Assembly (NCBI RefSeq): GCF_001411555.2
Contig: NC_049916.1
Location: 3,658,001 to 3,722,000, forward strand
Direction of reading: 5' to 3'
Length of the DNA stretch: 64,000 bases
Origin: Juglans regia
Lineage: Eukaryota; Streptophyta; Magnoliopsida; Fagales; Juglandaceae
Positions 2,431-62,479 of the stretch are shown here, piece after piece. The notes below the pieces were generated by a model, which was given only the letters and a program-made list of their open reading frames with translations, ran no database searches and had not been told where the DNA came from. Both the position numbers and the translations under genes were made by a program. How positions within the stretch are numbered: position 1 is the first letter of the stretch; the number at the start of each line of letters is the position of its first letter.

Positions 2431-3355
2431 TATATCCGATTGGAGAGAATGTTCCAGTGGTAACAAGTCAGGGGTGTAGAAAAAATTGGACTGGACCAAT
2501 GCCCAACTTGACCAACTCAGGCTTCGCAGGCCAAAAACCAAGATCCTTATGAAATAGGTTTACGCTCGGTTCTCCTCACCATGCATCGATGGTTACCATT
2601 CCTCTTCCTAGGGCGTCACATATTTGTTCGTCGGTGGTAGTCGGTCCCCTCATCGGCGTCCCTCCGATGATAGTACCACCAAAAAGTGAGAATAAGGGCG
2701 TTTTATGAAACGGGTTCAGCTCCGGGTTCTCTCCTCAAGAAGACAATTGCTCTGCCCCCCACTGAGATGTCATAGACTTGTTGGCCGGTTGTCAATGTTT
2801 TCTCTACCGCCGCCTCTCCAATGGTAGTATCACCAATGAGCAAGAATGTGCGTGTCTATGAAATTGGTTCAGACTCGGTTTGTATCCTTTCCACTTCGAG
2901 GACTGCATTGCCCCCTTTAGGGTTTATAAATAGGGGTAATACCCACCTTATACGGGTGGGTAGCAACCCTCTTCTCCCCCTGCCTGGGCGGGGAGCACTT
3001 TTTGGCAACTAAACCCCAACCCCGCATCAACCACGTCCAGCCCGCATCCGTCAATAGACAGGAAAATTTGCTAAGTGTCTTGTCTTCCATAAAAGAGATC
3101 AGTGATCAAACTTAACAATAGCTAGAGGCCCATAACTGTAAGATACTATTACTGTACCTTTGCCTCAAGTAGAAAAAAATCTAGCAATTTATTAAGGTTG
3201 GATTTGGAACCATTAGTAAAAAGAAGCACGTAATCAATCTTTCCTTCAAAAAATAGTTTTAATTAATTAACCATGGCTAACTGGCAACCCTTCAATAAGT
3301 GGAATCACTTATAAAGTTAGCTAGCTCAATCTACAATAGTACTCAAATCTAATGA
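2431..3355. other. Unassigned sequence with a possible GC-rich hAT-like end
   Basis: No coherent gene was found. A short TATAAATAGGGG-containing stretch near 2925-3060 is followed by 'acccacc' and 'gggtggg' blocks and GC-rich motifs, reminiscent of the GC-rich ends of the hAT element at 7876-8442. No matching second end or target duplication was found. Confidence 0.35.
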
Positions 3356-3358
3356 AAA

Positions 3359-3538
3359 TTGGGGGACATATGGAGTGGGATCATGGAAAAATATCCGGAA
3401 ACGTTGGGTGTCCTTCTCTAGACACACAAAACTGAGGATGGGAGATGATAACAAAATTAGTTTTTGGCATGATGTTTGTATTGGAGATACAGCTCTTAAG
3501 GATGCTTATCTTTCTATTTTCATAATTGCACGGGAATA
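3359..3538 (+). pseudogene. LINE 3' ORF2 fragment
   Basis: The plus-strand frame reads YGVGSWKNIRKRWVSFSRHT, then KLRMGDDNKISFWHDVC. This is the 'G.G.kIrFW.D.W.G' region between RT and the C-terminal zinc-binding domain (zf-RVT) of plant LINEs. It is a fragment only, ending at a TAG. Confidence 0.75.
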
Positions 3539-4012
3539 GGCTGCTTTGCTGTTAAATATATATACATATATATATAATTGATGGGGATAAAAACTTGTTT
3601 CAATCAAAAAATAGATTCAGATGAAAATGTTTTCTAGTAGAACTTTTGATTTTCCAATGTTTGGTTGGCACCATGAACATGATGCAGAAAAGAATTTTCA
3701 GTGTTTGGTTGCATTGAAAATCATGGCAGATATTTTCTGATTTTCATATATTATAATTTTGATTTATCGTATTAATATACTTTTGAAATATAGAAAATAA
3801 AATAAAAAATAAAAATTAAGATCATTCACACTCACAAATTTTTGCCATAATTAATAACCCCATAAAGTATTGCATTTTTTACAGATACAATAATCCATTA
3901 AGTTTTGCATCTATCACTGTTAACGTAAAATACGTACCCAATCATAAACCACCACATGTTAATTCATTTATTTTTAAATAATTTAATTGAATATTTCTTG
4001 AGAAATAAGACA
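3539..4012. other. AT-rich intergenic sequence
   Basis: Strongly AT-rich with a (TA)n run near 3555-3575. A pair of 'tgtttggttg' motifs at 3660-3715 hints at a degraded MITE, but no terminal repeats could be paired. No gene seen. Confidence 0.35.
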
Positions 4013-4130
4013 TTTTTTTTTATAAGTAAGAAATTTATTAAAAAATCACGTAATTTAGCATAGCCCAAGTACACAGGAAGTATACATGAGAAAACACCTA
4101 ATTACAAACTAAAGCAGAAAAACAGCACGA
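4013..4130 (-). mobile_element. LINE 3'-tail fragment
   Basis: The minus-strand end 'cctgtgtacttgggctatgct', then an 'aataaa' stretch and terminal 'cttacttataaaaaaaa', is the LINE tail seen also at 6360-6415 and 9420-9486. Only ~120 bp of the 3' end is present, directly downstream of a second LINE. Confidence 0.65.
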
Positions 4131-4137
4131 AAGTCAT

Positions 4138-5230
4138 TGGAACATTTTATTGATATGAATGAAGTAGGCCAAGCTCATGTACACAGGAAGTATTCAAAAG
4201 AACACTTAAATACATTTTAGGAGCCAAAAAGAATAGAAAAGAAAATCATGAACACTAGTTATGTTAAGCAAAATGGCTGAAAACCATAGCAATAAAGTGT
4301 ATACAAAAATTTTCTAAAGTTCCTCCATTGTACGCTCCTCATCATTTCCATCCAAATACACCACATAATGCACAAAGGAATCATCCTCCACACTGCCGCC
4401 ACTTGGGAACAGCCTTGAATCTCCTTCCAACAAGCTACTAAGTCCACCACCCTTAACGGCATAACCCAAGCCATACCAATTCTTCGATCTAAAGATCTCA
4501 TCCCACAACACTCTTGTCACCTCACAATGCAGTAATAAGTGATTCACTGATTCTCCATTCGTCTTGCACAAATAACACCAATCCATAACAAGGAGATCCC
4601 ACTTCCTCAAATTGTCTGTGGGAAAATATTCCCAAGAGATGCGGTCTATACGAAAAAAGCTACGTTGGAAGGCACACGGGACCTCCAAATACCCTTCCAC
4701 AGGAAAGGAACATTTTTTTTTTAGACAACATCTTGTAGTACAATCTCACTATAAACCGCTTGCTCCCGTTGGGCCTCAATTGCATCCTATCCCTCTGTGC
4801 CGTTAGACCTCCCGCGGAATATATCAAACTGAAAAATTCTGAAACAGTATCCATTTCCCAATCATGAATATCCCTATTAAATTGAACATCCCAATGGTGA
4901 TAATCGTGGGAAAATGGCACCAGATCTGACATAGAAGCATCTCTATTGACAGCAATGCGATAAAGAGCTGGAAAAGCCCTACAAGAGAGCGCGATCTCCA
5001 CACCAAACGTCGTGCCAAAATCTTCAAACCCCTCCTAATAAATTTCCATAAGCCCACACCATACCCTCCCCTCACTTCATTAGAACACCAAGCCCCCCAA
5101 GTGCTTTCGTGTCTATGATCAATAACCTCCTTCCAAAGTGAATTCCCCTCCAAGGGGTACCTCAATAATCATTTCCCCAATAGGACTTTATTGAATGTCC
5201 TCAATCCACACATTGAGAAGTAAGAAAAAT
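4138..5230 (-). pseudogene. 5'-truncated LINE, ORF2 C-terminus
   Basis: Minus-strand pieces in several frames give, in order: STWGAWCSNEVRGGYGVGLW (about 5165-5030), a middle region with AVNRDASMSDLVPFSHDYHH (5001-4860), the zf-RVT region with [20 protein letters not shown] (4600-4510) and a C-terminal WRMIPLCIMWCIW. Cys/His residues of the zinc-binding domain are intact, but at least two frameshifts break the ORF. This is a typical 5'-truncated L1-type insertion. Confidence 0.85.
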
Positions 5231-9500: not shown

Positions 9501-9718
9501 GTGACCATCATTCTTCCGCTTGCCAAGAGACGTGATAAATTTCTAAGATCCACATATAGCAGCAGAATATAACACCATGTAACTTGTATAAGCCTAAATA
9601 TGACAAGAAACAGAAGTCTAACAGAGGCACAAGTAGGTCACATGTTCCAATTACTAGAGTGTTCTGCTGTGGGAATATAAAATAAAATGTTATGAAGGAA
9701 GCAAGCAACAGAACATAC

Positions 9719-10955
9719 CATGGCTACACCGAACACAAGCGCCACACTTCACCTTGCATATGTTACACACTAATTTTCTCCTAGTTTCCTTTATTCCTCC
9801 TACGTTCATGATTGGCTCCATCTTCGACAAGTCCTCTATATACACCTCAGGCATCCATTGGCAACAAAACAAGTGAGCAAACCCCGTAGAAACACCATTT
9901 TCATCACTCTTTTGAACAGGTTTTAAAGCACCACCCTGCTTCGGGCAAAGCACACAAGGCGTCGCTGAATCACTACTGCTGCGATCACACTTCTGCTTGC
10001 ACCATGCGCACAACCACGTCAAATCCACGTCCTCCTGCACTCCATAGCACTTTTGATGGACTGAAACTCCACAAGAACTGCAACCAATCAATCGGTTGGA
10101 CTCCTTGCCCGTGTCAACCATGCAGCAAAAATGGCACAAAGACGAGTTCCCATCACAAGGACGAGAAATTAAAACTTTCTCCAAACCAGCGTCACCGCCC
10201 AGAAGTTTCCTTTTCTTTGAAGGCCGCTCCGAAGTTAAAGAAACCTTATCCCTTGTTCCTAAAAGCCATTCTAAACCGGCAGACAAATAGGACTGGGAAC
10301 TACCTCTTTCATCCCGAGGCAGAGCGTCAGCTTCAACATTGTCAATTTCCATGGACTGCTGGCCCTCACTCTTTACGTCCTCTTTAAAAACTCCATTTCC
10401 GTTCCCATTCCCACCATGCACATTGACAGTCTCATTTCCACAACTACCAAAATTCACCTTCAGAGCATTCTCCGAATATGGGATCACAAAACACTCCCGA
10501 GTAGCTAAAGAACTAAACGGGGAAGAAGCCTCAAACAAGGAGTCAATATCATGCAATGTCAGGTACCTGAAATACTCCGCCGTCTCAACCCAAATGTTGG
10601 AACCCCTAGCTGGCCGAGAAGACTTCTTGTCCGCTCCCAAATGGGACTTCTTGTGCCGCCTGCGACTATCTGAGCTCCTCGACAAGAAACTCGCCAACCC
10701 GCTTGGCAAAGTGGATGAACGCAAAGCCGAAGTCTCGTCCGCAACGTCGAAAGGCGAGCGCTCGCACAGCGCTTTCCTGGCCTGCGAGTAAAAATCAATG
10801 TCTTCCGAGGCCTGCTTCTCGGTAATTTCCGGTTCGGTCGGCGGAAGTGTGGCCGGAACCCTAGAAACAGGGCAAGGCCTCTCCTCGGTGCCGCAACCTC
10901 CGTCCGCACCCCTACCCATCATCTTCTTTCGCCTGTGACATCGGCTTCCGGTCAT
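9719..10955 (-). CDS. PHD-finger chromatin protein, first exon (partial gene)
   Basis: Likely a nuclear histone reader of the plant PHD/extended-PHD (JADE/BRPF-like) group. Upstream in-frame methionines exist (ORF opens at 11009), but I favour the Met at 10955 because MTGSRCHRRKKMMGRG is the conserved N-terminus as I recall it. Residues are counted from the 11009 Met. Features: basic N-terminus, DIDFYSQARKALCERSPFDV, WVETAEYFRYLTL, a nuclear-localisation-like SKKRKLLGG, a PHD finger at 292-337 (CHFC..C..C..HQKCYG..WLCAWC) and an extended PHD from 352 (CVLC, HLFCCQWMPEVY, KVKCGACVRCSHG). The exon ends at GCCATG|GTATGT (9719), in the middle of the ePHD. The missing half was not recognised to the left, so the gene runs out of the window or is truncated. 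No stops or frameshifts are seen. I recall an Arabidopsis relative but cannot verify it. Confidence 0.85.
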
Positions 10956-11420
10956 CAGCGACAATAACAACGCCCACCAACGCCAATACCTTCGCATTCC
11001 ATCACCCAAACCCTAACCCTAGAAATAGCCCTAACCCTAACCCAAACCCCAATCCTAATCTTAATCTTGCTCTGCCTTGGGACCTCACGTCCACCTCTAC
11101 GCACATAAACCCTAACCCTAATCAAACTCTGGCTGAAATCTTCAGGTGCACAGTTAAAGAAAGAGGGGGTGGAGTGAAGGGGATAAGTCGCGGCTAGGGT
11201 TTGGGTTTTCAGTTATTCTGGTCCGCAAATTCGTTCGGATCCGTTTTCAAGACTGATTTTTTTTTCACAGTTCGATTTCGCTTTCGAGGGGAAGAGAGAG
11301 ATTCTTTTTTTTTTTCTGGCAGGCAGTCGGGGGCCTTCGTTTCGGAAGATATTTTATAGTTGGGGCTTTGTAGCGTGTTGCAAGGCCATAGATTTGCGTT
11401 GGTGTGTCAACAAAATTATG
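10956..11420 (-). promoter_or_regulatory. Leader and promoter region of PHD gene, with telo-boxes
   Basis: The + strand here carries about ten CCCTAA/CCCTAA-like units (11008-11055, 11105-11122), i.e. repeated telo-box AAACCCTAA motifs upstream of the start codon. GA/CT-rich tracts follow (11158-11180, 11290-11320). Telo-boxes are common in leaders and promoters of plant housekeeping genes. The array is too short and degenerate to be an interstitial telomere. No clear TATA box. Confidence 0.55.
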
Positions 11421-11479
11421 CAGGTGTCGTTTCACTATAAGTGAAGTGATGTCAACAAATTAAGAACTTCTGTAGATTT

Positions 11480-11675
11480 AAATGAAATATGAAAGTTTAA
11501 AAATATTATTAAAATATTATTTTTTAATATTATTATTATTATTTTGGGATTGAAAAAAATTTAGTTTAAAAAAATTAAATTATTTATTATATTTTATGAG
11601 GAAATTTAAAAAAGTTGTAATGATGATAATTGATATGAGATGAAATACTTTTCGAATCCAAACGGCTCATAAGAC
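11480..11675 (-). repeat. MITE copy ('TCATCTCATC' family)
   Basis: The reverse complement holds the family signature seen in at least five other places: 'catctcatatc', 'attacaacttttt', 'aaatataataaataattta' and an AATAATAATA stretch. It ends in 'gaatccaaacgg'. It appears degraded. Confidence 0.6.
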
Positions 11676-11799
11676 TTCGTTTGTGGGAAAATTTAAACAA
11701 ACACATTTTAATGTATAAATATGTGTGTTTAAATAGAATGATAAAAATGATAAATCACATGTTGGTGTGTGGTTTGAGAATGATGAATAGCTTTTCTCT

Positions 11800-12010
11800 T
11801 ATTACAAAGAAATAGCTTGAGTCCTTATTTGATAATAATGCTAAATAGATTTACTCTAAATTATACATTTATCATAAGAAGGAAATAGCTTGAGTTTGAG
11901 TTGACACTAATGCTAAATAGGTTTTACTTTAGAATATACAATTGAAAAAATCTTTATAGAAGTTACTATTTGGTTGCATCCATTGCACACATGACGTGTA
12001 GATCAGGTTC
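11800..12010 (+). repeat. Candidate left terminal inverted repeat of a Mutator-like element
   Basis: Two tandem, diverged copies of a unit beginning AAATAGCTTGAGT and containing AATGCTAAATAG (11811 and 11883) lead to 'tagaagttactat' and 'cattgcacacatgacgtg'. The reverse complement of 21100-21520 has the same order: a doubled unit, 'tagaaaccactat', then 'cgttgcacacagtatgtg'. Eye alignment gives good identity (14/18) at the inner end and much weaker identity further out. Diverged homologous TIRs are the simplest reading. The outer boundary and any 9-bp target duplication were not found. Confidence 0.45.
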
Positions 12011-13925
12011 ACTAAGACACTGAATTGGTTTGAGACGTTTCGTCTCTTAGCTCTCATTCCCCTCCTTCAATCATTTGCCATTTCGGCCCTAAGCTCTCAA
12101 AGCCCCCCCCCCCCCCCCCCCGGCAGCCGTCCCAAACCTTACCCATCGAAGCACTAAGGTCGTCCTCTCAGCCCTCGTTCTCGTCCTTCAGCAAGCACCA
12201 AGCACGACCTCGGCTTTACCCACCATGACCTTAGCCCTCCCGAGGACATCAATCTCGTAGCCCTCGGTCCCTCAGTCCACCAACGACAAATCCCTCGGTC
12301 TCATCTCAATCCACTGACGTGAAATTGCCCTTAGATCTGCGGGAGGTTTAGCATACATTTTTTTTTCTCTATTTCTTCTCTTTTTTCTCTCTATATTTGC
12401 TAGAAACTAATGGTACCTCCTATAGATGTTGCCTCTCATGGCTTTGTGCAAACCTCTCTCTCAGCAGCTCTAGACCAACCCTATCGATTTCTCGCATGTA
12501 CATGCTTAAAGACTAAGCCCTCCCTGTCGAGAAATATAAGATATGGAGAGCTTAACATTTGTAATTTTTTTCAAATGTTAAATATGATTTTTTCAATTGA
12601 CGAAAGTTGGTTTCCTAAAAGTGGTTTTTGACTCTGATTAATTGTTCTCACATAAGAATATAGTATGGTTTGCTTGCATTTGCTTTTCCATTTTTTGAAA
12701 ATGAGATGAATAATCGAGTTCGTGATCTTTTAATTTTTTTCATAACATGTTTATTCGATTTATTGTCTTTGAGTATAATGGTTGCTTATGAATAATCAAG
12801 GCTGACCATAGGAGGATTGTTTACTCCATAGTTTAATTTAGTTTCTTGTATGCTATAGTTGAAGGATATATTGTGTTTCATGATATCATGCTTATATAAA
12901 AAAATGTTAAATTAACATTTCCTTCCTAGTAGTCTATTTTCTCAATTTTAATAGCTCCAAAACTCCTTTCATTTGGAAGAGACTCTTCCTCTGAAATTCT
13001 TGCCCAATCATGAGTTAAATGCATTGGGATCCTTCTATAGCTATCCATATCATGTTAATAAGGGTACTGTAATGTTGAAAATCATCTCAGAGATTGAAGG
13101 CAATTGATTTTCTAGTTTGCCTCACATCTAGTGGTTTTTACTATCATTCTCATAAACATTTTTAAGTCTATAAAAATTTCTGTTTTTGAAAGTAAATGAG
13201 AGTAGTATAATATAGAGAATAGAGAACTGAGAAGGGAGAAGGGAGAATTCTCACAGGGAAATGAGTTTGTTATTGAAAGGAAAATCAGGTTCAAAAAGAG
13301 AAACTGCCTGCTTTCTTTCCATGAGGAATGAGTTGTGTTTGAGTGGATTGCATTCATGTGAAATTGTATATGCTTTGTTAGCTTTATTGGTACATGTCTT
13401 GTTATATATTGAAGAGTCATCCAATATTCTCTACGTAGTTATCTTAGATTTATTTTAAATAATTATTAATATGAGATGAGACCCAAAATTAGATATTCTT
13501 ACTACTAGTAGTTGTTAACAAAGAATGAAATTCCAAAATGCAGTGTATCATATTAGTCTTAGGTGATTATCAGTGCCGGGAACAATTGTGATTTAAGTGC
13601 TTAAACACACTTGAAAGATAGAGAAAATTAAGAAAGTTGAATTTTGAGCTTCTGAGATGCAGGGATGCATTATGGTCTCCACAACTATGTTGGCTTGTGT
13701 TATTTTTCTATTGCGTATGCCATCAGATTGTTTCATGGATATTGTTGATTTCTTCTATCATAGCATTTTTCATTATCACGAGATGAATGGTAGACATTGT
13801 TTTATGCATATTGTTGGGTTACCTTTTACAGCTAACAATTTGTCTTTGAATTTGTCTTTGGTTCAACAGAATCACGCATGACATCATCTCAATCATTATC
13901 TTTAGTTAATGATTTTGTGATGGAA
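12011..13925. other. Interior of putative MULE, mostly unassigned
   Basis: Directly inside the left end lies a C-rich, leader-like stretch (12040-12330) with an 18-C tract at about 12104-12121 and repeated 'ccctcg' motifs. Plus-strand ORFs such as 12410-12631 show no family motif. Further right the sequence is AT-rich and unrecognised. The C-rich stretch could be the leader of a transcript starting in the left end. Confidence 0.35.
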
Positions 13926-13929
13926 TCAC

Positions 13930-14020
13930 CAAGTTGTTGATGTGGTTTGAAAACACCACTAAAGACATCCCATACTGCAAAAAATCCTGGAATGAGATTT
14001 TTTGTCTGCCCAAACTATAA
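13930..14020 (+). pseudogene. GRF-type zinc-finger fragment
   Basis: The plus-strand translation has C-stop-CG, then LKTPLKTSHTAKNPGMRFFV and CPNY. It matches the GRF zinc-finger pattern 'C.CG.p..l.TS.T.kNPGRrF..Cp.y', with a TGA falling between the first two cysteines. GRF fingers occur in DNA-repair proteins (topoisomerase III, NEIL3, APE2) and in many plant TE-linked genes. Only this ~30-residue motif is recognisable. Confidence 0.6.
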
Positions 14021-14767
14021 TACAATAAAGCAAATTTATATTTATCATATTTGCATATCAATTTGTTGCTTGCAGGGTGTATTTTATCATGTTAATTGGG
14101 AGTTCACATTGTGTGCAAGGAGATGTGAGGTGTGAATTCTTCCTATGAGCGGATATACTTCATCTGCTAAAGGAGAATTTTCTTGTAAGAGATAATAAAG
14201 TTTTGAAAACGAGGGATGATGTACTACGGCGAAAATGGAGAGAGAGAGTGAAGAATTTGAAAAAGGAAAAGTGAAAATTGTTATGTTAGTACTAGGTTCT
14301 CATATTTGTAACAGTGTTTGCTTGGTTCGGATAAATTCTATGTAAAAAGTACGTTGTATGAATTATATGAGTTTTGAATGAAAACAACTTGTTAACACTA
14401 TATTTGCATACTAATAGCACTTTTAAGTATGAATGAGAGGATGCAATTACCACATTGAAATGGAAGAGCACAAACACACTTTTCTGCATAAAAAACAAGC
14501 AGAACATATCTTGTGAAAATGAAAATTCCTCAAGTGTTATAGTTTGATTAGACTGCAGAAAACTCTACACGGCACCATTACAATGTGTCAGATTGGTAAA
14601 AACAGAACATCTCTTTCCTTTGCACTCGTGTTAGTGATTACAATGTGCCAAATTGGTGAAAATAGAACTACACGACACCATTACAATGTGTCAGTAATTC
14701 AATAGATTGATATCTGCAGATTTGTGGAGCCTTCAAACTTCATGTAGTCAATAGTAGCAAGCAAACT
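14021..14767. other. Unassigned, with short local repeats
   Basis: No coding region recognised. A local repeat (ttacaatgtg[t/c]c[a]) occurs three times between 14575 and 14695, two of them preceded by 'acacgacacca'-like sequence. Confidence 0.35.
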
Positions 14768-16172
14768 TCATGTCTTGTTATTGCACTTGGAAATGGTCCC
14801 CTGTTTCTTTGAACCTTTTTTCTTCAAAACAAAGGATAGTCATTCAGATGCAATTTTTTGGAGGACCACTTTGTCTCCAACTGATTTAACAATCTGGCAA
14901 GCTGACTCCTAAGCACAATGAAATTTTAGCACGACAGAATAAGCGTTCATTTCAACTCTAAAGGTGATCTGATGGGAGAATAAAGAAGAATGCAACCCAA
15001 TAAAAAGAATGAATGAGTTTATAACTTACAGGACCCAGGCCATAAACGCCTTGAGAGTAGTCACTGCCAAGCAATAGGGCAAGGGTTATCTGAAGATTAC
15101 AAGTATGGAATCACCACACTTGTTACAACTTACTAGAGGGGGAATCAGTCCCATTTTATATATACAAACAGAATTTTAGATAAATCGGATATACTAGCAA
15201 GCTTTAACATACATGCATGCATGCACAATTACATATGCGTAGCTTCATGAAGAACACTTCCTAAATAGAAAATTTAAGTCTTTCGTGTCTTGTAATGCAT
15301 TAAAACACGAATTATTAGCAGGACATAAAAAGAGCTTCCAACCATATCTTAAAGACAAGCCATTACTGTTTTTCTGCAGCATAATGCCATCCTTTTGACC
15401 TTCACTCAAGGTTGCCCATTAAGATGGCATCACTTAAAAAATAAACTTAAAGATACCACTACACATTATAGGCACATCTTACTAAATTGCAGATTGGAAA
15501 GAATTATCATAAAGAGGCTTTATTAGAAATACTCACATCTACAGGAAAACTCAACATGTACCAATGAGTTCCTTCTGTATCCAAGTTGCCTATCTACATC
15601 TGCCATTTCATAACAAATGACATAGCCGTCATCTCCTAATTTATTAGCAAAATGAATTCAAAATTAGTATACAAAAATAACTTACTCCAAAGAGATCAAG
15701 AGGCAAGCATGTGTGTATCTACTCACCAAGGCAGATATCTATATACACTGTCCTTGCACCAAATAGGAAGATATCCGAATCCGAAGTGAAACATCCATCC
15801 TAATGGTCATTATGATAATTTTAATGATAATAATGCTCATGAGGTTATATGACAGAGAATATGGAAGACGATATGAATCTCCAATGTACATCAGATACTC
15901 CAAATGAAACTGAGTGCAAAATTTCTACTCACGCATAATGATTCTGAGTTTAATAATGCGCATTGTGCTTCAGCTTCCTCAATCCTAAATTTATAAAAAC
16001 ATAAATATATATAAATATAATATTTAGTCCAGATATTTGACTATAATTATGAACAACAAGATTCTTACAATCAAAAGAATTATCCAACTCACACTTTGGC
16101 ATCTATTAAACTTTTCCTGTACTCCAAGAACTCATAACTTTTCCTGCCTGTGAAGCCTTTAATATCTACCAC
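14768..16172 (-). pseudogene. GEN1-like XPG/Rad2 nuclease, captured exon series
   Basis: Exons are found only by splice-aware reading. 15933-15984 gives IEEAEAQCALLNSESLC (XPG-I acidic motif). 15727-15799 gives DGCFTSDSDIFLFGARTVY. 15562-15635 gives GYVICYEMADVDRQLGYRRN. 15030-15089 gives ITLALLLGSDYSQGVYGLGP (helix-hairpin-helix side). 14908 leftward gives ESACQIVKSVGD. All have AG/GT borders and compatible phases. The order and motifs are those of plant GEN1-type Holliday-junction/flap nucleases. In the last exon a TGA (14842-14840) stands where glycine is expected; beyond it the frame stays open with LSFVLKKKGSKKQGT to a TGA at 14770-14768. The N-terminal nuclease domain and C-terminal part are absent. 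Exon 16093-16172 is in phase but its peptide (DIKGFTGRKSYEFLEYRK) is not GEN1-like. Introns are retained, so this is DNA-level duplication, not retroposition. Confidence 0.75.
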
Positions 16173-16569
16173 CTTAAAATAAAATGGAGATTATTTGTAA
16201 GATAACTCCAAGCAAAAAAAAAAAAAAGTAAGTAACTAACAACACATGTGCTTACATGATGCCTAGAGAGAAACACACAGATCATATATACCTGAAGTTG
16301 TTCTACGAGTTTATGAAGAAGATTACCGACAACTTAATCAACTTCCTGGTGTAGAGAACCATATCAAAACAATACTTCCTGGTGTAATCATATGCCGAAG
16401 ATGCAACCCAAGAGTTTCACCAAAACAGTGCAAACCAAACCCACTCTAAAAACTTCAAAAAATGTTTCTTCTCATCACCATGGAGTTACAAGTGTGCATC
16501 AAGATGGTCACACATATGAAAGATATAATTAAAACAAGGATTGAAGCACGCTTTTTCTTTAACCAAATT
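16173..16569. other. Spacer between GEN1-like and FAR1-like pseudogenes
   Basis: No convincing exon. The minus strand contains GNLLHKLVEQLQ near 16290-16330, unassigned. A duplicated 'acttcctggtgtag/aat' occurs at ~16342 and ~16374. Confidence 0.3.
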
Positions 16570-19539
16570 GTTTACATCATGATATCATACATGATATTTA
16601 TTTATTGAAAAGACACAGTTAACCTCATTTCCTGGTGGAGTTGATCGTGTAAGAATGTTGTTTTGTGTTCCTACACCAACCCCATCATCAAATTGGTGTT
16701 GTTGAGATCCCGGGGTGTCACCCAATTGTGTTTCATCTACCAAGATTTTCTTGCAAGTCTAAGTTCCAAAAAAAAAAAAAAAAGACATATATTAGAATCA
16801 GAATACTAACTATTAACCCCCCGTATATTTACACAATTATTACCGGTTTCTTTCTCTTTGTTACCATCTTTTCCACGGATGGAACCTTTCTCTTACTTGG
16901 GGGTCTCCCTTTCCCTCGGACCACATTGAGGTTTAATATCTTCTTACTCTTATCCAATCCATATTTGGTTTGGCATTCGTTTGTTCAAATGTCGACTCTA
17001 GTGTTGAACCTTCACATTTTGCCTCAAACTCATCAACAACACGCAGGAATGCACAGACTTTTTCATTATCTGAGGATATTTTGGTTGCTAATTTTGAACC
17101 TTTTTAACCACAAACTCATAATTTTGGGCGTCTAATCTGTCCCACTGGTCATCGTAACTACTTCTGAGTAATGTGTATCTCTTTTTTAAGTCATTTCTCC
17201 AGCGATCCAAGACATATACATCTGGCAGCACATAATCTTTCTCAACTGACAAACTCTAAGTACATGCCTACATAGAATCCTCCTCATCTCAAACAATGCA
17301 CATATGCATTTTACCTCCACCTCTCTTTTGTTATAGTAAACTGAGACATGGACTATTTTGATGTGGTCATCATTAGATATTTCATCCAACACATTGTATT
17401 TTAAAATGCACCATTGTGTGCTTACCAACCAACAATTACAACACATTAGGCCCAACAACTCCCTTTGGACCTCTTTGAACTTTGCATTTGTATACAAGTA
17501 TTGAAACTGCTTCTCAATGTTGAAATGAGACACATAGAGAATAGTTTGGTTGTTAGAATTGAAATTAATAGTTGTCTCTACCTAAACTTTTTTTCTAAAA
17601 GCATTATCAAATTAGTCGAAAAATTCTTTCAATATTGTACCGGAATGGACATATCCGTTGAAAAATGCATTCATGCTTTCCGACCTTTGTGTCGTGCTCA
17701 TACTATCCCAAAATACACTTTTCAAGTAAGCTGGAACCCAAAAATACATTTCCTCATATAAGGATCAAAGTCATTTATTGTTGACTAGATCATATTTCAC
17801 AAGTAGTTGATCCCAACTCTCCTCAAATTCTGTGGTAATCTGTGAGTCATATAATGCAGTCTAAATGTCAGTCTTCAACCCCGAAGAGAATTTGGTGTGA
17901 GATCCTAACTTCTCTGGAAGTTTGCGCATTATATGCCATAAACAATATCTATGATGAGTTTCAGGGAATACAATGGCAATATCACTCTTCAATGCCCGAT
18001 CTTGGTCCGTTATCATGGCTTTGGGCACTCGACTATTCATGCAATCTAACCACATTCAGAACAACCACACAAAACTGTGCGTGTCCTCTCTTGAAAGCAA
18101 TCATGCCCCTAATAAAATGGACTGCCCATGATGGTTAACACCAACGAATGGAGCAAAAGGCATCTCGTACCTATTTGTTAGGTACGTTGTATCGAAGGCT
18201 ACAATGTCTCCGAAATACTCATAGGCTGCTCAACTTCGAGCATCAGCCCAAAACACATTCCGTAACCTTCTCTCATCATCCACTTCCATGTTAGAAACGA
18301 AGCTATCACTCTGATCTCTCATTCTTTGGAAATATTGATTAAATGTTTCGCCACCTCCTTTACCCAACCTTAAATGTCTAGTCTTGTCAATGAAATTTCA
18401 ACAATCTTTCTCTTGAAACTGAAGACTCTCAAAACCCCCCACATCTACAATAAGAGAATAAAAATTCTTGTTCATCCGTATACCGGCTCGATCATTCAGG
18501 TCGATGATCCTTTGATTGTATTCATTTAGACACTTGTGAGATCTCAACAGTCATGTCTTCTTAGGGCTCACAGTTATGTGGTTGTGCATATTTTCAACAG
18601 TGGTGAAAACCCACTTATCATTCTTGCTCAACGTTGCATTTACTCTCGCCTTACAATTCGTTCTAGTTGTTGGTCGTGACTTCGAGATATCAAATTCTTA
18701 GGTTGATATTTTTCACCACGGGCACAACCAACGGTCACATACACAGGCCTCCCATCATCATCTTTCCTGGTCCTCTGTGTTCGTACACCAAAACCCTATT
18801 GCTTGGCATATTGTTTGTAGTAGGCCGTAAGCTTTTTCACACTGTCAAATTCCATACCGAATCTTGGTGCTGCTTCAACTTGTATCTCATCATTCTGGAC
18901 AACAGTGGTACCCTCTAAATGTTCATTTATGTTGAAGATCATTTCTAAAAATGGAAACATAGGGATGGATTAGCATCAAAACAAGATTACAGTCATTATA
19001 ATCAAGGTAGACAAAACTGTAATACCATTGGCGTCATGAAAACTTTCATCAATCATCCGTGATGTACTTCCTGAATTTTGTTCAAATTCTGCAGCAGTTA
19101 GCACAGTTGACATCGGGGGGGACCCTTCTTGCCTCAGGTCCTCTAGATTACTTGGCGGAGGGTAAGGCATATAAGGTGACATTTGCTCAAACAGACACGT
19201 TGTTAGGTAAAATTGAATGACTATAAAGAAATTAAAATGTTAATTTCTAGAATTTAAAAATTCAAATAAATATACCTGAAATAAATCATCAAATGGGCTA
19301 AAGTCTATCAGATTACTCAGCGAAAGGTAGGGCATATTTACATCAAAAGTATGCTGCAAGTATGCAATTAGTTGAATTCATGAGCACGTCAAACAAACTT
19401 TATTAAAAAGTAAAAATCAATCAACTTGTCTACTCACATGGTAGACGTTTGGATTTCCTCCTCTATTTGGGAGCATCATTAATGACTGTGAAGTCGACGT
19501 CGAAGGTCTATGTGGCATTCTATCTTCCTCTTCCCCCAT
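16570..19539 (-). pseudogene. FAR1/MURA-like (Mutator-derived) pseudogene
   Basis: FAR1 proteins are transcription factors descended from MULE transposases. Reading leftward: start MGEEEDRMPHRPSTSTSQS (exon 19438-19539, GTGAGT donor); a further exon with MPYLSLSNLIDFSPFDDLFQ; the FAR1 DNA-binding domain (about 18900-18560) with YYKQYAKQ, stop, GFGVRTQRTRKDDDG; the MULE transposase domain (about 18420-17860) with [52 protein letters not shown]; a SWIM-like C.C..CRH near 17290-17220; and a Gln/Asp-rich C-terminus near 16760-16620. Several in-frame stops, one inside the DNA-binding domain and others in the transposase domain, show it is dead. It runs from the putative right MULE end inward, as transposases do. 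Confidence 0.85.
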
Positions 19540-21099
19540 CACACTAAGGCTAATAATGTCTTCCGAGACTTTATAAGTAAAGAACGTGATGGCAAAAGAA
19601 GAAAAAATGAAGATTAAACTCTCATACGTAATGCAGAATCTGAAAATGTCATTTTGTCATTATTACAAATGCTGTGATGTTGGTATAAATAGAAAAAATA
19701 AAACCAAAGCACTCTCAGTGAACATAACAAATTAAACGAAGAAAGATAAAAATAAGAAGGAAAGAAATAGATTTTCCTTCTTTTTTTTTCTTTTTTTTTT
19801 TTTTGTGATGCCATAGATACTAAGATCTTTGTCTCATGTATTTGCACCAACTACATGCTAAAAAGCACATGAAAATGAAACCAAATTCATTTTGCCTTTT
19901 TCCTTAACACAACTATGCTTCTTCCTTATTAATATACATATTTGCGTGTGCACACTTAAAATGACAAAGAATTACCATAAAAAATATCTATTAATTCTAT
20001 AGCCTTACTGTCACTTGGTTTAAAGGATTCTCTAAATCACAAGCAAAGAGTCCAATGGTGATCTACAAATAATCAATGTCCAATGATGATCAATGTGATC
20101 ATCATTAAGGCCCCAAAACACACATAAGAAATCAGCCCCTCCAAGCAATATTTAAACCCTAATTCAATCTCAATATCTCTTTCTTTCTAATGACAACAAG
20201 AAAACAAGAATGCAGGGTTAAAAAAAATGGTAAGCAGCATGTAGACTAATGCTGTTTGAGATGAGTGGTGGCTGTCAAAAGGCCTGTAAGAGTTTCCAAT
20301 GAAGCATGCCAAATGTCAAAGAATGTTTTTTTTAACAATTTAGTAGATGTACTCTTTTTCTTTTTTTGTTGTAGAAGAAACTTCATATTTGGAAGTCATG
20401 CAAGATTTATGGGGCAAAGCCACTAAAAAGCTCGCATTGAACTAAACTTCTTAAGCAAATAAAACAATCAGAGCCTTACAGATCCTATTTTTCTGGAAAG
20501 AAAAATATTTTTCTCCATGCCCTATGACATAATACCCATATCAGAAAATGCAAAAATACATCTCGATGTACACATGAAGAACATAATAGTATGAAAGGGA
20601 AAATGGTACAATATTTACCTACAAAGCTGAGCAAACCATTTGGCGAAACAGAGCTATTGGAATTTGTTGTTGGTTTGGTCCATTCAATCACAAGTTTGAG
20701 GGCAGTGGTGACGCTCGGGAGACGTAGGAGCATCGCGAGTTGGCGCTGAACAGAGAGACGTCGTCGCGAGGTGGCGCTGGGAAGAGGAAGCCGATGCGGG
20801 TTCTTGGTGAGGAAGGAGGGTGGGTTTTGCGGGATTCAAATCTAGTTTCGGGTTTGTTTCGTTCAAGGAGCTCTCTGGAAGTGGCTACGTTGGGCAGACG
20901 GAGGAGCACCGCTCGGTGGCACTGACGAGAGAGACAACGTCACCGGGAGGCGCTGGGTAGAGGAAGTTGACGCGGATTGCTGTCAAGGGAGGAGGTGTTC
21001 CACGAGATGAATTCGAATGGGGATGAAATTAGGAAACCGACTTTCAAATTGACTCAAAATGCACGTTTTGGGTTTTTTTTATTTATTATTATTAAAGAA
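19540..21099 (-). promoter_or_regulatory. Upstream/leader region of the FAR1-like pseudogene
   Basis: A GC-rich leader-like block at 20690-21010 contains an internal duplication: two copies of 'gctcgg..gcgctg..agagagac' plus 'ggcgctgg.(a)agaggaag..gacgcgg' about 185 bp apart. The remainder is AT-rich. Minus-strand ORFs here have leader-type composition and no motif. The placement fits 5' untranslated sequence of a transcript starting in the right end. Confidence 0.4.
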
Positions 21100-21530
21100 G
21101 AAGAAGAAGCAGCCACATAGTGTGTGCAACGAGTGCACTACTACAGTGGCTTCTATGTAGAAAACCTATATACAATTAATGTGACAAGGAAGTAAAATTT
21201 AATGTAAATGATAGAATTATTGTGAGTTAACTCTAATACTAAATTCTTAGGTGAAATAGCTTAACATGGGAGGAAGATGTAAGGCCACTCAACTTTTGTA
21301 AAAAATTAAAAAAAAAAGAAAAGAAGCAGAAGCCACATACTGTGTGCAACGAGTGTACTACTATAGTGGTTTCTATGTAGCGAACCTCTATACAATTACT
21401 ATGACAAGGAAGTAAATTTTAATGTAAATGATAGAATTATTGTGAGTTAACTCTAATACTAAATTATTAGGTGAAATAGCTTAACTGGGGAGGGAGATGT
21501 AAGGCCACTCAACTTTTGTATATCAATATC
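21100..21530 (-). repeat. Tandemly duplicated terminal repeat (candidate right MULE end)
   Basis: Two ~200-bp direct copies (about 21110-21300 and 21325-21520) share 'gccacata.tgtgtgcaacga', 'ctatgtag.(g/a)aacct', 'gacaaggaagtaaa', 'gatagaattattgtgagtta' and 'gtaaggccactcaactttt' with few differences. In inverted orientation the unit resembles 11880-12000. Confidence 0.8.
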
Positions 21531-21850
21531 ATCGCTACAGGTAGGATATTTGTTCCCCATAACCCATGTTACTTTATTTTTTTATTTTTTTCAATGACTG
21601 TTTATTTAAAAAAAAAAAAAAAAAACTCTATCTATATATTTTTTTCATTATATTTTTCATTTAATTTTTGTCATTATTTATTATAGGGATATTATGGACC
21701 CAGCTCCATTCTACACACAATTTATGGTTCCTCCAAATAAATACCTAAATTCATATCCCTAACCACGTGGAAGACAAGTAGATTGATTTACTTAATTTTT
21801 TCTTCATTTGCAGTATAAATCTTCTCACGCGTCTATATAATTGTAGCATC
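21531..21850. other. Unassigned AT-rich spacer
   Basis: T- and A-runs near 21570-21640. No gene or recognisable repeat end. Confidence 0.3.
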
Positions 21851-22109
21851 CGTTAATATCAGTTCTTTGACCAACATTACCATACCTTTCGTCGAGTAAT
21901 CTTGAAACACTAAGAGATTTTAAAGAGACCACACAATGCGTAAGTGCTTCATCCACTCTGCATAATGGTGTAGAAAGTGAGAAGAGCGTTGTGGGTACAT
22001 CACATGCAAATGATCGTAGCAATCATATTAATAATGGTATTACTTTTTAAAATCCATTTTTTCAAAACCAATGTCTATAACATACATGTTAATCTGAACC
22101 ATTTTGTGT

Positions 22110-22895
22110 ACTTGAATAGTGTATAAAGAAACAGCACATGACGCACAAGTTAATATCGAAGGGAATAATGACAATGAGGGGTCTGACATGGTTGATGACG
22201 AACAAGTTGATGAACCAAAATTTGGTGACTTTTACCATTGAGAAAAAGTTTTGTGCATATTACAAACAATATGCCAAACAAACGGGTTTTGGTGCAATGA
22301 CACAAAAGACAAAATGAAAGGCAGATAGGAGTGTTAAATACATCACAATTGTGTGTGCGCATGGCAGCAATCATAAACCTAGCCATAGTAATATCTCGAG
22401 GTCACGTCCAACAATTAAAATAGATTTTAAGGCTAAGGTAAATCTTCAACTGATGAATGGGTTATGGGTTTTAACCATCATTGAACTAGCTCATAATCAC
22501 ACTGTAAGCTCACGAGAGTCATGATTTTTTAAATCAAACAAGTATTTAAATGAATATAGTCAAATGATGATTGATTTGAATGACAAAACAAGTATTCAAA
22601 TGAACAAAAATTTCAATGCTCTTGTTGTTGACACAGGGGTATGAAAATCTTGAATTTGCGGAGAATGATTATTGAAATTTTATTGATAAAGTCAGACACT
22701 TAAAACTTGGTAAAGGAGTTGCCAAAGCACTCAATGATTATTTTGATAGAATGAGGGAGATGAATAATAGATTTTTATCTGATATGTATATGGATGACGA
22801 GTTTAAGGTTCGAAATGTGCTTTGGACTGATACATGCAGTCGAGCATCCTATGAATACTTTGGAAATGTTATTGCATTTGATACGACATAGAAGG
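22110..22895 (+). pseudogene. Second FAR1/MURA-like fragment, interrupted
   Basis: Plus-strand pieces give the FAR1 DNA-binding region (YYKQYAKQTGFGAMTQKTK; then CAHGSNHKPSHSNISRSRPT) and the start of the MULE domain (NDYFDRMREMNNRF, MDDEFKVRNVLWTDTCSRAS, YEYFGNVIAFDTT). The homology stops at about 22890, exactly where the same motif in the first copy would continue into YLTNRYGMPF. The sequence after it is unrelated LTR-like DNA, so an insertion or deletion broke the copy. Frame changes and stops occur upstream too. It is oriented opposite to the copy at 16570-19539. Confidence 0.75.
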
Positions 22896-25466: not shown

Positions 25467-26400
25467 ATGTCGAAATATATGGAAGGAAGTTTTGTGGAGA
25501 TGAAGGAATGTATAAGAATGATGGTAGAGGAAGTTGAGAATCTTCGCAGTGAAAATGAAGTTCTGAAACAAGTCAATACCGAACTGCAAAATGAAGGATA
25601 GCCAAATAGAAACGAACAGGGAGAATCTTAGAGTGTAGGCGGTGTAGGCGCCGACGAAGAATAAAAGGAGAAAGAAGCACCACGAGCTATGAAGCCTTAT
25701 AGACAAGTAGGAGGAGATGGCGAGGAGGATGAACGCCTCCTCATCAGTAGATCAGCTGCTCACCAACATGAATTTGTCGTACTGTACCGAGGTGATGGTT
25801 GTGTTGTTATCACCGAAGTTCAGGGTCTCTCAAATGGAAATGTACAATGGATCTAGGAACCCCATTGAGCACCTGAAAATCTTCAAAGATCACATGACCC
25901 TGCACGAGTTGCCCGAGGAGATTGCTTACAGAGCCTTCCCTCTGACTTTAAAGGGGCCCACGAGGGTGTGGTTCATGTCGTTGGTACCCGGATCAGTTGA
26001 TAGCTTTGGAGAACTAACCAATCTATTCCTCACACAGTTCATGGCTAGTAGGAGGAGAAGGCACCCAACAATGTGCCTCTTAACCATCAAACAAAGAGAG
26101 GACAAAAGCTTAAAGGCATACATGTCCAGGTTCAACAAAGAACGGATGACCAGGATGAAAAAATCACCTTGGTGACACTTCTAGGAAGCGTGTGGACAGG
26201 AAACCAGTTCATGGTGAAGTTAGCCAGAAGAACCCCCACCACGCTGCGAGAGTTCATGGATCAGGATGATGGCTTTATCAATGTCGAAGGATAAACTCCG
26301 AGCCCTAATCAAGCTCAGAAAGAAAGAGCTGGAATAGGCAAATAGGAAAGCCAAGGTGTCAGGCAAAGCTAAAGCCCTCGAGAAGGCCAAAGGGAGCTAG
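25467..26400 (+). pseudogene. gypsy gag
   Basis: It opens with MSKYMEGSFVEMKECIRMMV and a heptad-rich VENLRSENEVLKQVNTEL segment, stopping at TAG 25600. From 25717 comes the Retrotrans_gag core: MEMYNGSRNPIEHLKIF, PLTLKGPTRVWFMSL, SFGELTNLFLTQF, LLTIKQREDKSLKAYMSRF. The frame then shifts near 26140. A DKALFINVEG-like segment follows in another frame. It would form the capsid; it is non-functional as written. Confidence 0.8.
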
Positions 26401-26639
26401 TAGGACATGAGGCAGGATGAGGCACCCTTCTCGAGAGGCCTAAGACCTCGATACGACAGGGTTACATTGTCTGTACAGAAGGAGGACAGACCAACACCCC
26501 GGGAAGCCAACAACTGGAATAGGGGCAGCCATTACTTAACCTACCATCGGACGACGTCCCACCACACTACAAACTGCAACTCCTTTAGACAAGAAGGGGG
26601 AGTGCTAGAGTACCACCCCCATTAGCACCATACCGACAG

Positions 26640-27060
26640 AGAGTGCCCCCTAAGCTAGATCAGAATCATCACTTGAGGTTTGCTGGCGGTGGCTTGACCT
26701 CCTCCATTAGGAAGGCACATACCAGAAGGGCACGGTTTGAGAAAATATACTCGGCTGACCACAGCTTGACCAACCGAAGAAAAAGCGTGACCGCACCGGA
26801 CATCTCATTCGGAGAAACTGACCAAGAAGGGGTTCTCTACCCCTACGATGACGCCTTAGTGGTGACCATGCTTGTGGCCAACTTCAACACTAGAATGATC
26901 ATTGTCAATAATGGCAGCTCAGAGAACATTCTCTTCTGGGAGGCCTTCACCCAGATGGGGGATTGATCTCGCGCGCCTGCGATCCGCACCCATGCCAACA
27001 ATGCCTCTAACACAGCCTCTACCATGGCTGAGTTCATAGTGGTAAAGGGCCCCTCGTCGT
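26640..27060 (+). pseudogene. gypsy protease region
   Basis: DISFGETDQEGVLYPYDDAL is followed by VTMLVANFNTRMIIVNNGSS and ILFWEAFTQMG, the retropepsin segment of Tat elements. The catalytic DNGSS motif reads NNGSS here, so the active-site aspartate is replaced by asparagine. A TGA follows GD at ~26966. Confidence 0.75.
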
Positions 27061-27449
27061 TCCAGCTGCGTTGAAGAGTACCTATGCACTATTTCCAATT
27101 CACTGATAAGGAAGATAGAGTTGGGGGTCTACAATGTGATACTAAAATATGTCCTACTACAGGTGTCGCGACAATCTCTTTATATTTCGTATCCTGCTAC
27201 TTTGGTTGGATGCGGGGTCTACTCCACGATGGGTGATCAGACTTGTTAATTAAGATTTTTTCTATGTTGAGAATCATCTGTGAATCCCCACTTTGATTGA
27301 CCCAAGCCCAAGGGGAACACCAAACTCTGTACTGATGTTAAGTCACAGTCAGGATCAGCAACAGAATGAGACCTAATATGCTGTCGGCTATGAAGCAGCT
27401 CCTTATAGAACACCGAGATAATCCAACACCATCTGTGCATAGACCTTGA

Positions 27450-28250
27450 GGACATGCTAGGGATTGATTCCTACGTTATCCAACGCCATCTGTGTGTAGA
27501 CCCCGAGGCCAAGAAAGTCAGGCTGAAGTGCCAAAATTTCAGTGCCGAGAAATACACCGCCATCACCGAGGAGGTCAACCGCCTCTTAGCCGTCGGACAC
27601 ATTTGGGAGTCATGCTACCCGGATTGGTTATCCACATTGTGCTGGTGAAGAAGGACAACGATAAATGGAGAATGTTTCTCGACTTCACTGAACTGAACAA
27701 GACTTGCCCAAAAGACAACTTCTCTCTTCCCCGAATCAACTTAATAGTAGACTCCACCTTGGGCCACCACATGTTAAACTTCATGGATGCCTATTCAGGA
27801 TATAATCATATATGCATGAACCCCGACGATGAGGAAAAAACATTGTCTATCATTGACATGGGGCTGTATTGCTACACTGCCATGCCTTTCAGCCTGAAAA
27901 ATGTGGGCACTACTTATCAAGGACTGGCCACCGCATGTTCAAGGAACAAATAAGACGAAACATGGAAGCCTATGTAGACGACTTGCTTGTTAAGAGCAAG
28001 ACCCCTGAACAACCCTTGATCGACCTGCACGAGGCCTTCGCGGTACTACGACGCTACCAGATGAAGCTCAACTCGATAAAGTGTGCCTTCGCTGTCGAAT
28101 CTAGGAAGCTCTTACATTTAATAGTCTCTGAGCGAGGGATAGAGATCAACCCAAAGAAAGTAGAAGTCATACTTAACATGGCCCCACCAAGGAACATTAA
28201 AACGTACAAAGACTCACCGGCCGAATGGCAGCCTTTAATCACTTCATGTC
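27450..28250 (+). pseudogene. gypsy reverse transcriptase
   Basis: 27454-27648 gives KKVRLKCQNFSAEKYTAI and EVNRLLAVGHIWE. A shifted frame gives WRMFLDFTELNKTCPKDNFS, LPRINLIVDSTLGH and NFMDAYSGYNHI, then AMPFSLKNVGTTYQ. A third frame (27869-28354) gives MEAYVDDLLVKSKTPEQ with the YVDD catalytic motif intact. Two frameshifts break the domain. Confidence 0.85.
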
Positions 28251-28725
28251 TAGGTTGGCGGACAAATGCCTACCATTTTTCAAGGTCTTATAGAAGGCAC
28301 AGACTTGGAACAGTGAGTATGACCAAGCCTTCGAGTCCCTCAAGCGGTACCTAACGAGCCCACCCCTACTCAACCAAGCTGAACCAAGAGAAGCCTTGAA
28401 CCTGTATCTGTCTGTCTCCCTCCACACAGTCTCTGCGGCCTTCGTACTGAATTTGAAGGGCTCCCAAAAGCCAATTTACTATATCAACCGAGCTTTTCTA
28501 GGTGCATAGGCAAGATACCCCTACATGGACCAACTCGCCTTCACCATAGTAATTATTGCCCATTAGCTCAGACCATATTCCAGGCACACCCAATACTGGT
28601 CCTGACCGAAATCCCTCAAAAGAAGATCTTGCATCGTTCAGATGTCTTAGGCCGATTGATGAACTGAGCAATAGAGCTGAGTGAGTTTGACATCGAATAC
28701 GTCCAAGAAACACTATCAAATGGCA
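28251..28725 (+). pseudogene. gypsy RNase H
   Basis: Frame-broken residues include YDQAFESLKRYLTSPPLLNQ, then LNLYLSVSLHTVSAAFVLNL and QKPIYYINRAF. This is the usual RT-linked RNase H of gypsy elements. Stops near 28510 and 28565, plus further indels, disrupt it. Confidence 0.7.
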
Positions 28726-37292: not shown

Positions 37293-37485
37293 GACTTGAT
37301 TTGGATAGTGAATTGAAATAAAATAAAAGTTGAATAAAATACTATTAGAATATGATTTTTTAATATTATTTTTATTTTGAGATATGAAAAAGTTGAATTA
37401 TTTATTATATTTTGTTTGGAAGTTTGAAAAGTTGTAATGATTAAATGAGTTGAAATAGTTTCACTATCCAAACCAGGCCTTATTG
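37293..37485 (-). repeat. MITE copy ('TCATCTCATC' family)
   Basis: The ends are GACTTGATTTGGATAGTGAA and, inverted, AGGCCTGGTTTGGATAGTGA, a good terminal inverted repeat. The interior holds the shared 'ttcaacttttt', 'aaatataataaataattc' and AATAATATT motifs on the minus strand. Confidence 0.75.
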
Positions 37486-59125: not shown

Positions 59126-59387
59126 TGTTATAGAAAAATGTTTATGTATTCTCATTAATTCCAAATGTATTACAAGAGGTCTTTTATAGTGAGATGCTAA
59201 AATGAATGTACAAAGAATATTCTGTGGACTAATGGTTCATGGTTTGTTACAAATGCAGAGGTGCAACTCATGCACACAGCAGCTAATAGCTTTTGGATGA
59301 ATAACTCGTTACGAGACTATGCTTGGTTCACTTGGTTGTGAGGACTGTGATGGTGCAGTTGTTCTAGAAGAAATATTTTCCTTAACA
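59126..59387 (-). repeat. Copia 3' LTR (left end)
   Basis: A 262-bp repeat TGTTATAGAAAAATG...TTCCTTAACA matching 63663-63923 with scattered differences. For the minus-strand element this is the downstream LTR. Confidence 0.9.
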
Positions 59388-60231
59388 TTTCCTATCAAAT
59401 CAAGTGACAATGATTGAATACGAAGACTTGAACACAGATGAGTGAAACGAGCTGCCGAGAGAGGTTTGGTTAGGATGTCGGTGAGCTGATCTTTTCCAGA
59501 AATAAAGGAGACATTCAATGACTTGTTGAGGACCCGATCACGAACAAAGTGAAAGTCAATTTCGACATGCTTTGTTCTAGTATAGAAAATGGGACTTGAT
59601 GACAAATAAGTTGCTCCTACATTATCACAGTAGAGTAGAGGTGCACGGGTGAACACTACTCCAAGGTCTCTACAGAGATGTTGCAGCCAGATTACCTCAG
59701 CATTGGTATTGACTACGGCTTTAACCTCAGCTTCGGTTGATGAATGTGCTATTGTAGGTTGTTTCTTTGAAGACCATGAGATCAAGTTGTAGCCGAGGAA
59801 AATGCAGTAGCCACTAGTTGATCTTCGATTGTCGAGGCATCCAGCCCAATCGGCTTCGAAAAAGGCAATGAGACTTGAATTAGGAGATGGAGAGAGTTGA
59901 AGACCAACGTGAGAAGTATTTTTAAGGTATCAAGATGCATTTGACGGTTGCCAATGGGGAATTCGCAGGACATGCATAAATTGGCATACCTTGCTAACAA
60001 CAAATGCAAGGTCAGGTCTAATGAAGGAGAGGTACCGGAGTGAGCCAACGAAGTTGTGATATAGTGTGGGATCCTCAAATAAGTTGCCATTGAAGGCACT
60101 GAGTTTCTCGAATGTGGCCATTGGGGACTTAACTGGCTTGGCAAGTAACATGTTAGTTTTGTGCAACAAATCAATGATGTATTTCTACTGTGTGAGTAGC
60201 AGACCGTTGGAAGTGTAGGTCGCTTCGACAC
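59309..60231 (-). pseudogene. Copia RNase H region
   Basis: Minus-strand pieces give SLRYLSFIRPDLAFVVSKV and FMHVLRIPHW (60169-59930), a shifted LDASTIEDQL-type segment, then ISWSSKKQPTIAHSSTEAEV and TKHVEIDFHFVRDRVLNKSL, ending LTDILTKPLSAARFTHLCS. The order and motifs are those of the Copia RNase H. Two frame breaks. Confidence 0.85.
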
Positions 60232-60299
60232 CCAAGAAAAAATTTAACTTGTCGAGATCAGTTATGGGAAAGTTAGTGTGTAGAGTCGAGATAAGATCT

Positions 60300-60990: not shown

Positions 60991-60999
60991 AACTGCCGA

Positions 61000-62473: not shown

Positions 62474-62479
62474 GTACTA

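Follow-up and report, generated by a model that had tools for sequence, protein, structure and literature searches.

We analysed 64,000 nucleotides of walnut (Juglans regia) DNA, C16:3658001-3722000, and refer to this whole stretch as the window. All genome searches covered the 571-Mb walnut genome. The window carries a Mutator-like element (MULE) of 9,225 bp at positions 11944-21168. It contains a FAR1-type transposase gene, a GRF zinc-finger gene and, between the two, a fragment of the host nuclease gene SEND1 joined to a short piece of a second host gene. Both ends, the target duplication, both element genes, the two host sources, a joint shared with a second carrier on C13 and relatives free of the captured DNA (the cargo) were observed directly. 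The best explanation, which we hold to be very probable, is that a two-gene FAR1-type walnut MULE, carrying chimeric host DNA acquired once, inserted here long ago. A first-pass annotation of the sequence had already proposed a MULE with a transposase and a captured nuclease fragment at this place. The proposal is supported by a perfect target site duplication, anchored ends, other copies in the genome, an intact SEND1 parent and the shared joint. Its span of 11800-21530 (~9.7 kb) was too wide and is corrected here. The features are as follows.

11944..21168: whole MULE, 9,225 bp (right limit 21388 when the outer unit is included)
11935..11943: left 9-bp target site duplication, TATACAATT, matching the right copy at 9/9 positions
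21169..21177: right 9-bp target site duplication, TATACAATT, after unit 1
21389..21397: further repeat of the 9-bp duplication, behind unit 2
11944..11998, plus strand: left terminal inverted repeat (TIR), 55 bp, imperfect
21114..21168, minus strand: right TIR, unit 1
21334..21388, minus strand: right TIR, unit 2 (tandem duplicate), 32/55 versus the left end
19539 to ~16603, minus strand: FAR1-type MULE transposase gene, full-length but interrupted by in-frame stops and frame changes
13878 (approximate)..14330, plus strand: GRF zinc-finger gene, decayed, convergent to the transposase gene
14774..16038, minus strand: captured SEND1 genomic fragment, 1,265 bp, five exons, four introns, one in-frame stop
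16033..16137, minus strand: captured Cas1/RWA-like acyltransferase piece, 105 bp, 93% to C7:16908327-16908431
16147..16247: element segment after the cargo, with a similar segment also before the cargo in the C13 copy
12030..12330, plus strand: C-rich block inside the left end, putative leader
20660..21020, minus strand: G-rich block inside the right end, with two 119-bp repeats (20701-20819 and 20877-20995) that are 74% alike
21094..21520: tandem duplication, 220 bp, of element end, target duplication and flank

Ends, target duplication and family copies

The termini were positioned by reading other copies in the genome and then placing the window element. The left end is common to loci L009-L012, L036 and L037, and to L013 from 11967 on. 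On the right, similarity halts at 21167 in L009, L010, L012, the C13 copy, L036, L037 and L039, at 21160 in L013 and at 21181 in L038. Outside the ends fixed in this way we found the 9-bp duplication that the first-pass annotation had suggested looking for. Its sequence also occurs by chance at 49844 and 53329, and the third occurrence linked to the element, at 21389, lies behind the second terminal unit. When anchored at the ends, the left TIR and unit 1 match at 33/55 positions, and none of 10000 shuffles was as good. Two 18-mers had been quoted as evidence that the ends are alike. They do match at 14 of 18 positions, but taken alone this is a chance result: 81% of 300 shuffles were as good, and the 9-bp exact core was reached in 355/500. 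Once other copies fix the ends, the 18-mers fall within the 55-bp repeat. The C-rich and G-rich blocks noted just inside the two flanks are both present and were read directly.

Copies spanning both ends were also found in the genome. By blastn, six other loci hold both (L009, L010, L012, L013, L036 and L037), and L011 holds only the left. In L009 and L010 the right end (20510-21167) lies within 4.8 kb of the left end, in the same orientation. Target duplications match at 9/9 positions in L009, L036 and L037 (for the last two, as the best result over 11 end positions), at 8/9 in L010 and at 1/9 in L012; L013 was left unscored because its terminal bases differ. L009 and L010 are 98.6% identical over 4.8 kb, and L036 and L037 98.8% over 5.4 kb, each pair at different sites, which indicates that the family moved recently. 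The left-end genome search gave at least five other places with 11946-12050 or part of it. As 40 of its 636 candidates were scored and L036 and L037 were absent from its result, family copy numbers are lower bounds. Within L012, a stretch at ~4211-4236 resembles the left element end.

The doubled unit described at 21.1-21.5 kb is real, with 87% identity over 220 bp ungapped and 92% over 207 bp. Since the unit repeats element end, target duplication and flank together, the doubling probably is a tandem duplication that followed insertion. MULEs with tandem TIRs are known (PMC3310237), and one passage of that paper reads as if their inner TIRs lacked flanking target duplications. A second doubled unit, at 11.8-12.0 kb, also exists (spacing 72-73 bp; 0/1000 shuffles), but it lies outside the element, contrary to the first reading. 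Positions 11700-11815 belong to a widespread genomic repeat that often occurs in inverted pairs.

Several features of the surrounding sequence were recorded. A repeat at 11476-11664, beside the element, has relatives at 37312, 55211, 57857, 58911 and 63233. To the left of the element, a 22-bp stretch (11897-11918) resembles 21223-21244 in the right doubled unit in direct orientation (19/22; 19/500 shuffles gave an equal score). A second FAR1-type transposase copy occupies 21694-22888 on the plus strand, right of the doubled unit and in the opposite direction, and is cut off at ~22888. About 0.9 kb left of the element, an open frame with PHD-finger domains (9690-11012, minus strand) is probably a host gene. 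Coding remains at 25711-28354 and 59309-62476 were named Gypsy-like and Copia-like from the appearance of their translations.

Element genes, cargo and the second carrier

The FAR1/MURA pseudogene running leftward in the first reading was confirmed on the minus strand. Its pieces, in several frames, span residues 1-863 of the 872 of a Carya relative (P0121) that has FAR1, MULE and SWIM domains; the window pieces themselves match PF10551 (MULE) at 2.6e-12 and SWIM at 6.1e-5. Among the best 120 of 1665 matches, the nearest transposases come from Carya and Juglans, and no relatives of P0121 turned up in IMG/VR. Over 486 transposase codons aligned with the C13 copy, 10 stops are specific to the window, 7 to C13 and none is shared; each stop is a sense codon in the other copy. 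C13 could be aligned in one frame over residues 148-863, where the window copy shifts frame. Because 0 of 17 stops are shared, the common ancestor of the two genes was probably open over these 486 codons. The open frame expected of an autonomous MULE is present in neither carrier today.

The GRF and transposase genes are both directed inward from opposite ends. The GRF domain (PF06839) was detected at E 5e-5 with 23.7 bits, which is below the curated cut-off of 25.9. The gene is also found in C13 and L012, each copy with its own stop, and the region 14108-14380, whole or in part, is 71-80% similar in L036, L037, L038 and L039. The first-pass annotation was thus right about presence and strand, but a gene that recurs across the element family is not a scrap. 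Among the open reading frames (ORFs) of L009, L012 and L013, none of the 10 submitted to Pfam out of 67 scored above a curated cut-off. One search of the open-licence literature gave no paper combining Mutator-like elements with a GRF zinc finger. A GRF gene convergent to a FAR1-type transposase is a lead on an accessory gene, for which a role in the life cycle of the element is a candidate only.

The nuclease exons had been read as XPG/GEN1-like, with introns, on the strand of the transposase. Strand and introns are correct: five exons were located between 15984 and 14774. The gene is not GEN1. It is its paralogue SEND1 (single-strand DNA endonuclease 1, GEN-like 2). The joined exons correspond to residues 141-271 of the 593 of walnut P0241, with which they are 93.9% identical over 131 residues, and contain an XPG_I domain (4.8e-17). 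The next nine relatives follow at 82-87%, eight of them Fagales by name, and then others at ~77-84%. The best match among solved structures is GEN1 (entry 5t9j). Holliday junctions are among the substrates of SEND1, which it resolves as the second GEN1 homologue of plants (PMC9071465). The intact source locus that the first-pass annotation had wished to see exists, as SEND1 instead of GEN1: 14774-16038 is 94% colinear, introns included, with C10:6311543-6312816 (L033), where exons span residues 1-593. From this parent the window fragment differs at 66/1263 sites and the C13 fragment at 46/1048. In a genome search with the SEND1 block (38/38 candidates scored), long matches were obtained only in the window, C13 and the C10 parent. 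Short pieces of the last captured exon, of 40 bp and 32 bp and 97-98% identical, lie at C16:22324682-22324751. Of the 120 SEND1 relatives listed, 13 come from Vicia faba; several of these gene models also have unrelated domains, which looks as though SEND1 fragments were multiplied in that genome too.

XPG_N (P0241 residues 1-92) and the chromo domain (382-435) are missing from the captured piece. Eight residues differ from P0241; five of them, including the stop, affect positions conserved in at least 146 of 171 orthologues, and at two others the window residue is the commoner one among orthologues. With XPG_N and the chromo domain absent and one stop in the frame, the cargo is not a working nuclease, for which XPG_N, XPG_I and an open frame would be expected. 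Any effect of the cargo would be exerted through chimeric transcripts or small RNAs, which is hypothetical. It is an improbable extension of this idea that a still autonomous two-gene walnut MULE lineage acquired a sense-strand piece of the host's own junction-resolvase gene, and that its transcripts or small RNAs acted on SEND1.

The second piece of cargo comes from C7, ~1.6 kb upstream of exons with a Cas1 acyltransferase domain (PF07779), in a gene that we take to be RWA-like. What looked like an exon at 16175-16092 proved chimeric, composed of element sequence and the C7 piece; neither PDB nor Pfam gave a match. A shared ATATTT marks the joint between SEND1 and the C7 piece. At the point of return, where element sequence resumes, both carriers read AACTTTTCCTG|CCTGTGAAGCC, and the window has 27 extra bp before it, with AACTTTTCCTG present twice. 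At the other edge of the cargo, SEND1 and the GRF-side element sequence of the window overlap by CTTGT (14774-14778).

The second carrier lies at ~C13:25061684-25070857 (L031). It comprises 12259-14778, portions of SEND1, the C7 piece and 15808-21167, in the same order as the window apart from cargo differences and small gaps, and shares the SEND1-C7 joint and the return point. Both the transposase and the GRF gene are present. Its SEND1 piece is longer, corresponding to positions 6213-4544 of the parent locus with two internal deletions, compared with 5817-4544 in the window, and its cargo is flanked on either side by an element segment resembling 16147-16247. The tested flanks of the two carriers are not similar to each other. 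In L039 and L035, the element blocks 14688-14733 and 16147 onwards are 151 and 152 bp apart, and SEND1 and the C7 piece are absent. The cargo presumably arose once, given that the C13 copy agrees with the window in its joint, transposase and GRF gene and that L035 and L039 are cargo-free.

Acquisition of the cargo and competing explanations

These observations suggest the following course. A break or stalled fork inside the element would have been repaired by synthesis that ran through element sequence and then switched into SEND1 on C10, copying ~1.7 kb antisense across five exons. At the shared ATATTT it would have switched again, to 105 bp of the Cas1/RWA-like gene on C7, and then returned to the element, where ~100 bp were copied a second time. 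The carrier would later have come to occupy two sites. The window copy would have lost part of its cargo through a deletion at the shared CTTGT and had its right end tandemly duplicated, and each of the two transposases would have decayed on its own. An insertion with re-copied element sequence fits template switching in repair, as argued for Pack-TIRs (PMC8277862); the mechanism itself is inferred.

Some observations weigh against this reading. When 11700-12050 was aligned blindly and locally to the reverse complement of 21050-21560, the comparison proposed by the first-pass annotation, 130/500 shuffles reached the score. Self-comparison of the window revealed no inverted repeat linking both ends. 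The C13 copy lacks the left end, hence its target duplication is uncheckable, and 128 bp between element and SEND1 in this copy (L031:8426-8553) have no source among the window and 11 loci. The return joint shows no clean microhomology. In the sibling L012, ~1.4 kb of other DNA occupies the cargo position (~2804-4242); comparison of this filler with 10 other sequences gave nothing beyond one 23-bp word. Finally, the two carriers differ less within the captured block than in the transposase gene, as detailed below.

Two alternatives bear on how the cargo moved. In the first, the cargo-bearing element was never autonomous and other FAR1 MULEs moved it in trans, which we consider possible, if doubtful. 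The annotated walnut proteins include related FAR1 proteins of 703-894 residues (P0123-P0125), neither carrier has an intact transposase today, and in the search with P0121 eight other loci (L009, L012, L013, L035-L039) hold at most the first transposase exon, from which we conclude that other family members moved in trans. For the carriers themselves, the absence of shared stops and the single frame of C13 argue against it.

In the second, which is unlikely and slightly less probable than the first, the block originated in one element and reached the other, already separate, through later ectopic gene conversion instead of transposition. Between the carriers, 29/651 sites differ within SEND1, compared with 261/2906 in the transposase gene, 196/2481 on the GRF side, 116/1057 in the right part and 21/448 at 16147-16600. 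The captured block and 16108-16707 differ by 4-5% and most other bins by 6-18%. The difference between SEND1 and the transposase gene is significant at all sites (p 7e-5) and at non-CpG sites (p 5e-4), and against the GRF side p is 0.009 at non-CpG sites. Transversions, in contrast, are alike in SEND1 and the transposase gene (p 0.44) and give p 0.15 against the GRF side. Along the element, divergence runs from 2% to 18% and is greater where GC content is higher (rho 0.62 over 28 bins); the captured bins are under the fit by 0.3 to 1.4 standard deviations. Some uncaptured AT-rich bins are equally similar (12859-13158 at 2.0%, 19708-20007 at 4.6%). Because divergence tracks GC content and such bins are equally low, unequal rates may suffice. 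Site patterns with the parent (19 window-only, 10 C13-only, 15 parent-only) fail to separate gene conversion from carriage by transposition. Had the block spread by gene conversion, the stop argument would say less about the carrier at the time of capture. The bins 12859-13158 and 20706-21005 were noted for the range of divergence between the carriers.

A remnant of a duplicated host gene lying beside an unrelated transposon is a very improbable source of the SEND1 exons. Walnut has undergone a whole-genome duplication, a possible origin of such a gene, and introns and colinearity are kept. Both limits of the piece, however, fall within the element, sequence from a second gene adjoins it, and it differs little from its parent; we rejected the remnant on the joint shared with C13. 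Adjacent independent fragments, a dead transposase gene with separately inserted scraps and no single element, agree with the chance-level results of the blind alignment, the longest shared words and the 18-mer match; with both ends held by other copies, a perfect target duplication and the order from 12259 to 21167 kept in C13, this explanation can be dismissed almost entirely.

Comparison with known systems

Among the open-licence papers listed, screened by title and opening of the abstract, nothing on point linked GEN-like nucleases or SEND1 with transposons. Several known systems resemble the walnut element in part. Maize MuDR likewise has a transposase gene and a second gene converging from two ends (PMC3310237). 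Unlike MuDR, the walnut element has a FAR1-type transposase, short imperfect ends and a GRF zinc-finger gene as its second gene. Typical MULEs have long terminal repeats, whereas those of the walnut element span 55 bp.

Capture of a nuclease piece beside a transposase was called unusual in the first-pass annotation. It is less so than thought, as grapevine MULE families, Jittery-like ones included, carry a ULP sequence downstream of the transposase (PMC2528002). These elements resemble the walnut case in their 9-bp target duplications, where found, in the retained transposase and in host sequence downstream of it, and one Mutator family has both intronic and exonic host sequence (PMC2528002). 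The cargo differs: ULP and cellulose synthase in grapevine (PMC2528002), SEND1 and a Cas1/RWA-like scrap with one joint in two copies in walnut.

Pack-TIRs, for which gap filling or fork switching has been argued, share with the walnut element filler in a TIR element, interior breakpoints and microhomology at one joint (PMC8277862). They are animal elements (PMC8277862), whereas the walnut element is a plant MULE with two unlinked templates in one filler.

Pack-MULEs also hold host-gene fragments inside MULE ends (PMC6446971, PMC3310237), and are described as having lost the transposase gene (PMC6446971). In contrast, the walnut element has kept a full-length transposase gene, though broken and without an open frame. 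As Pack-MULEs are described as transposase-free, timing and manner of capture are hard to read from them. In walnut, the steps of a two-template capture are readable at the joints, with the transposase kept, two carriers, both sources and two cargo-free relatives at hand, and capture evidently need not await loss of the transposase gene. In summary, gene capture by MULEs is known, and what is new is an unusually well-resolved case with a second copy and intact source genes in the same genome.

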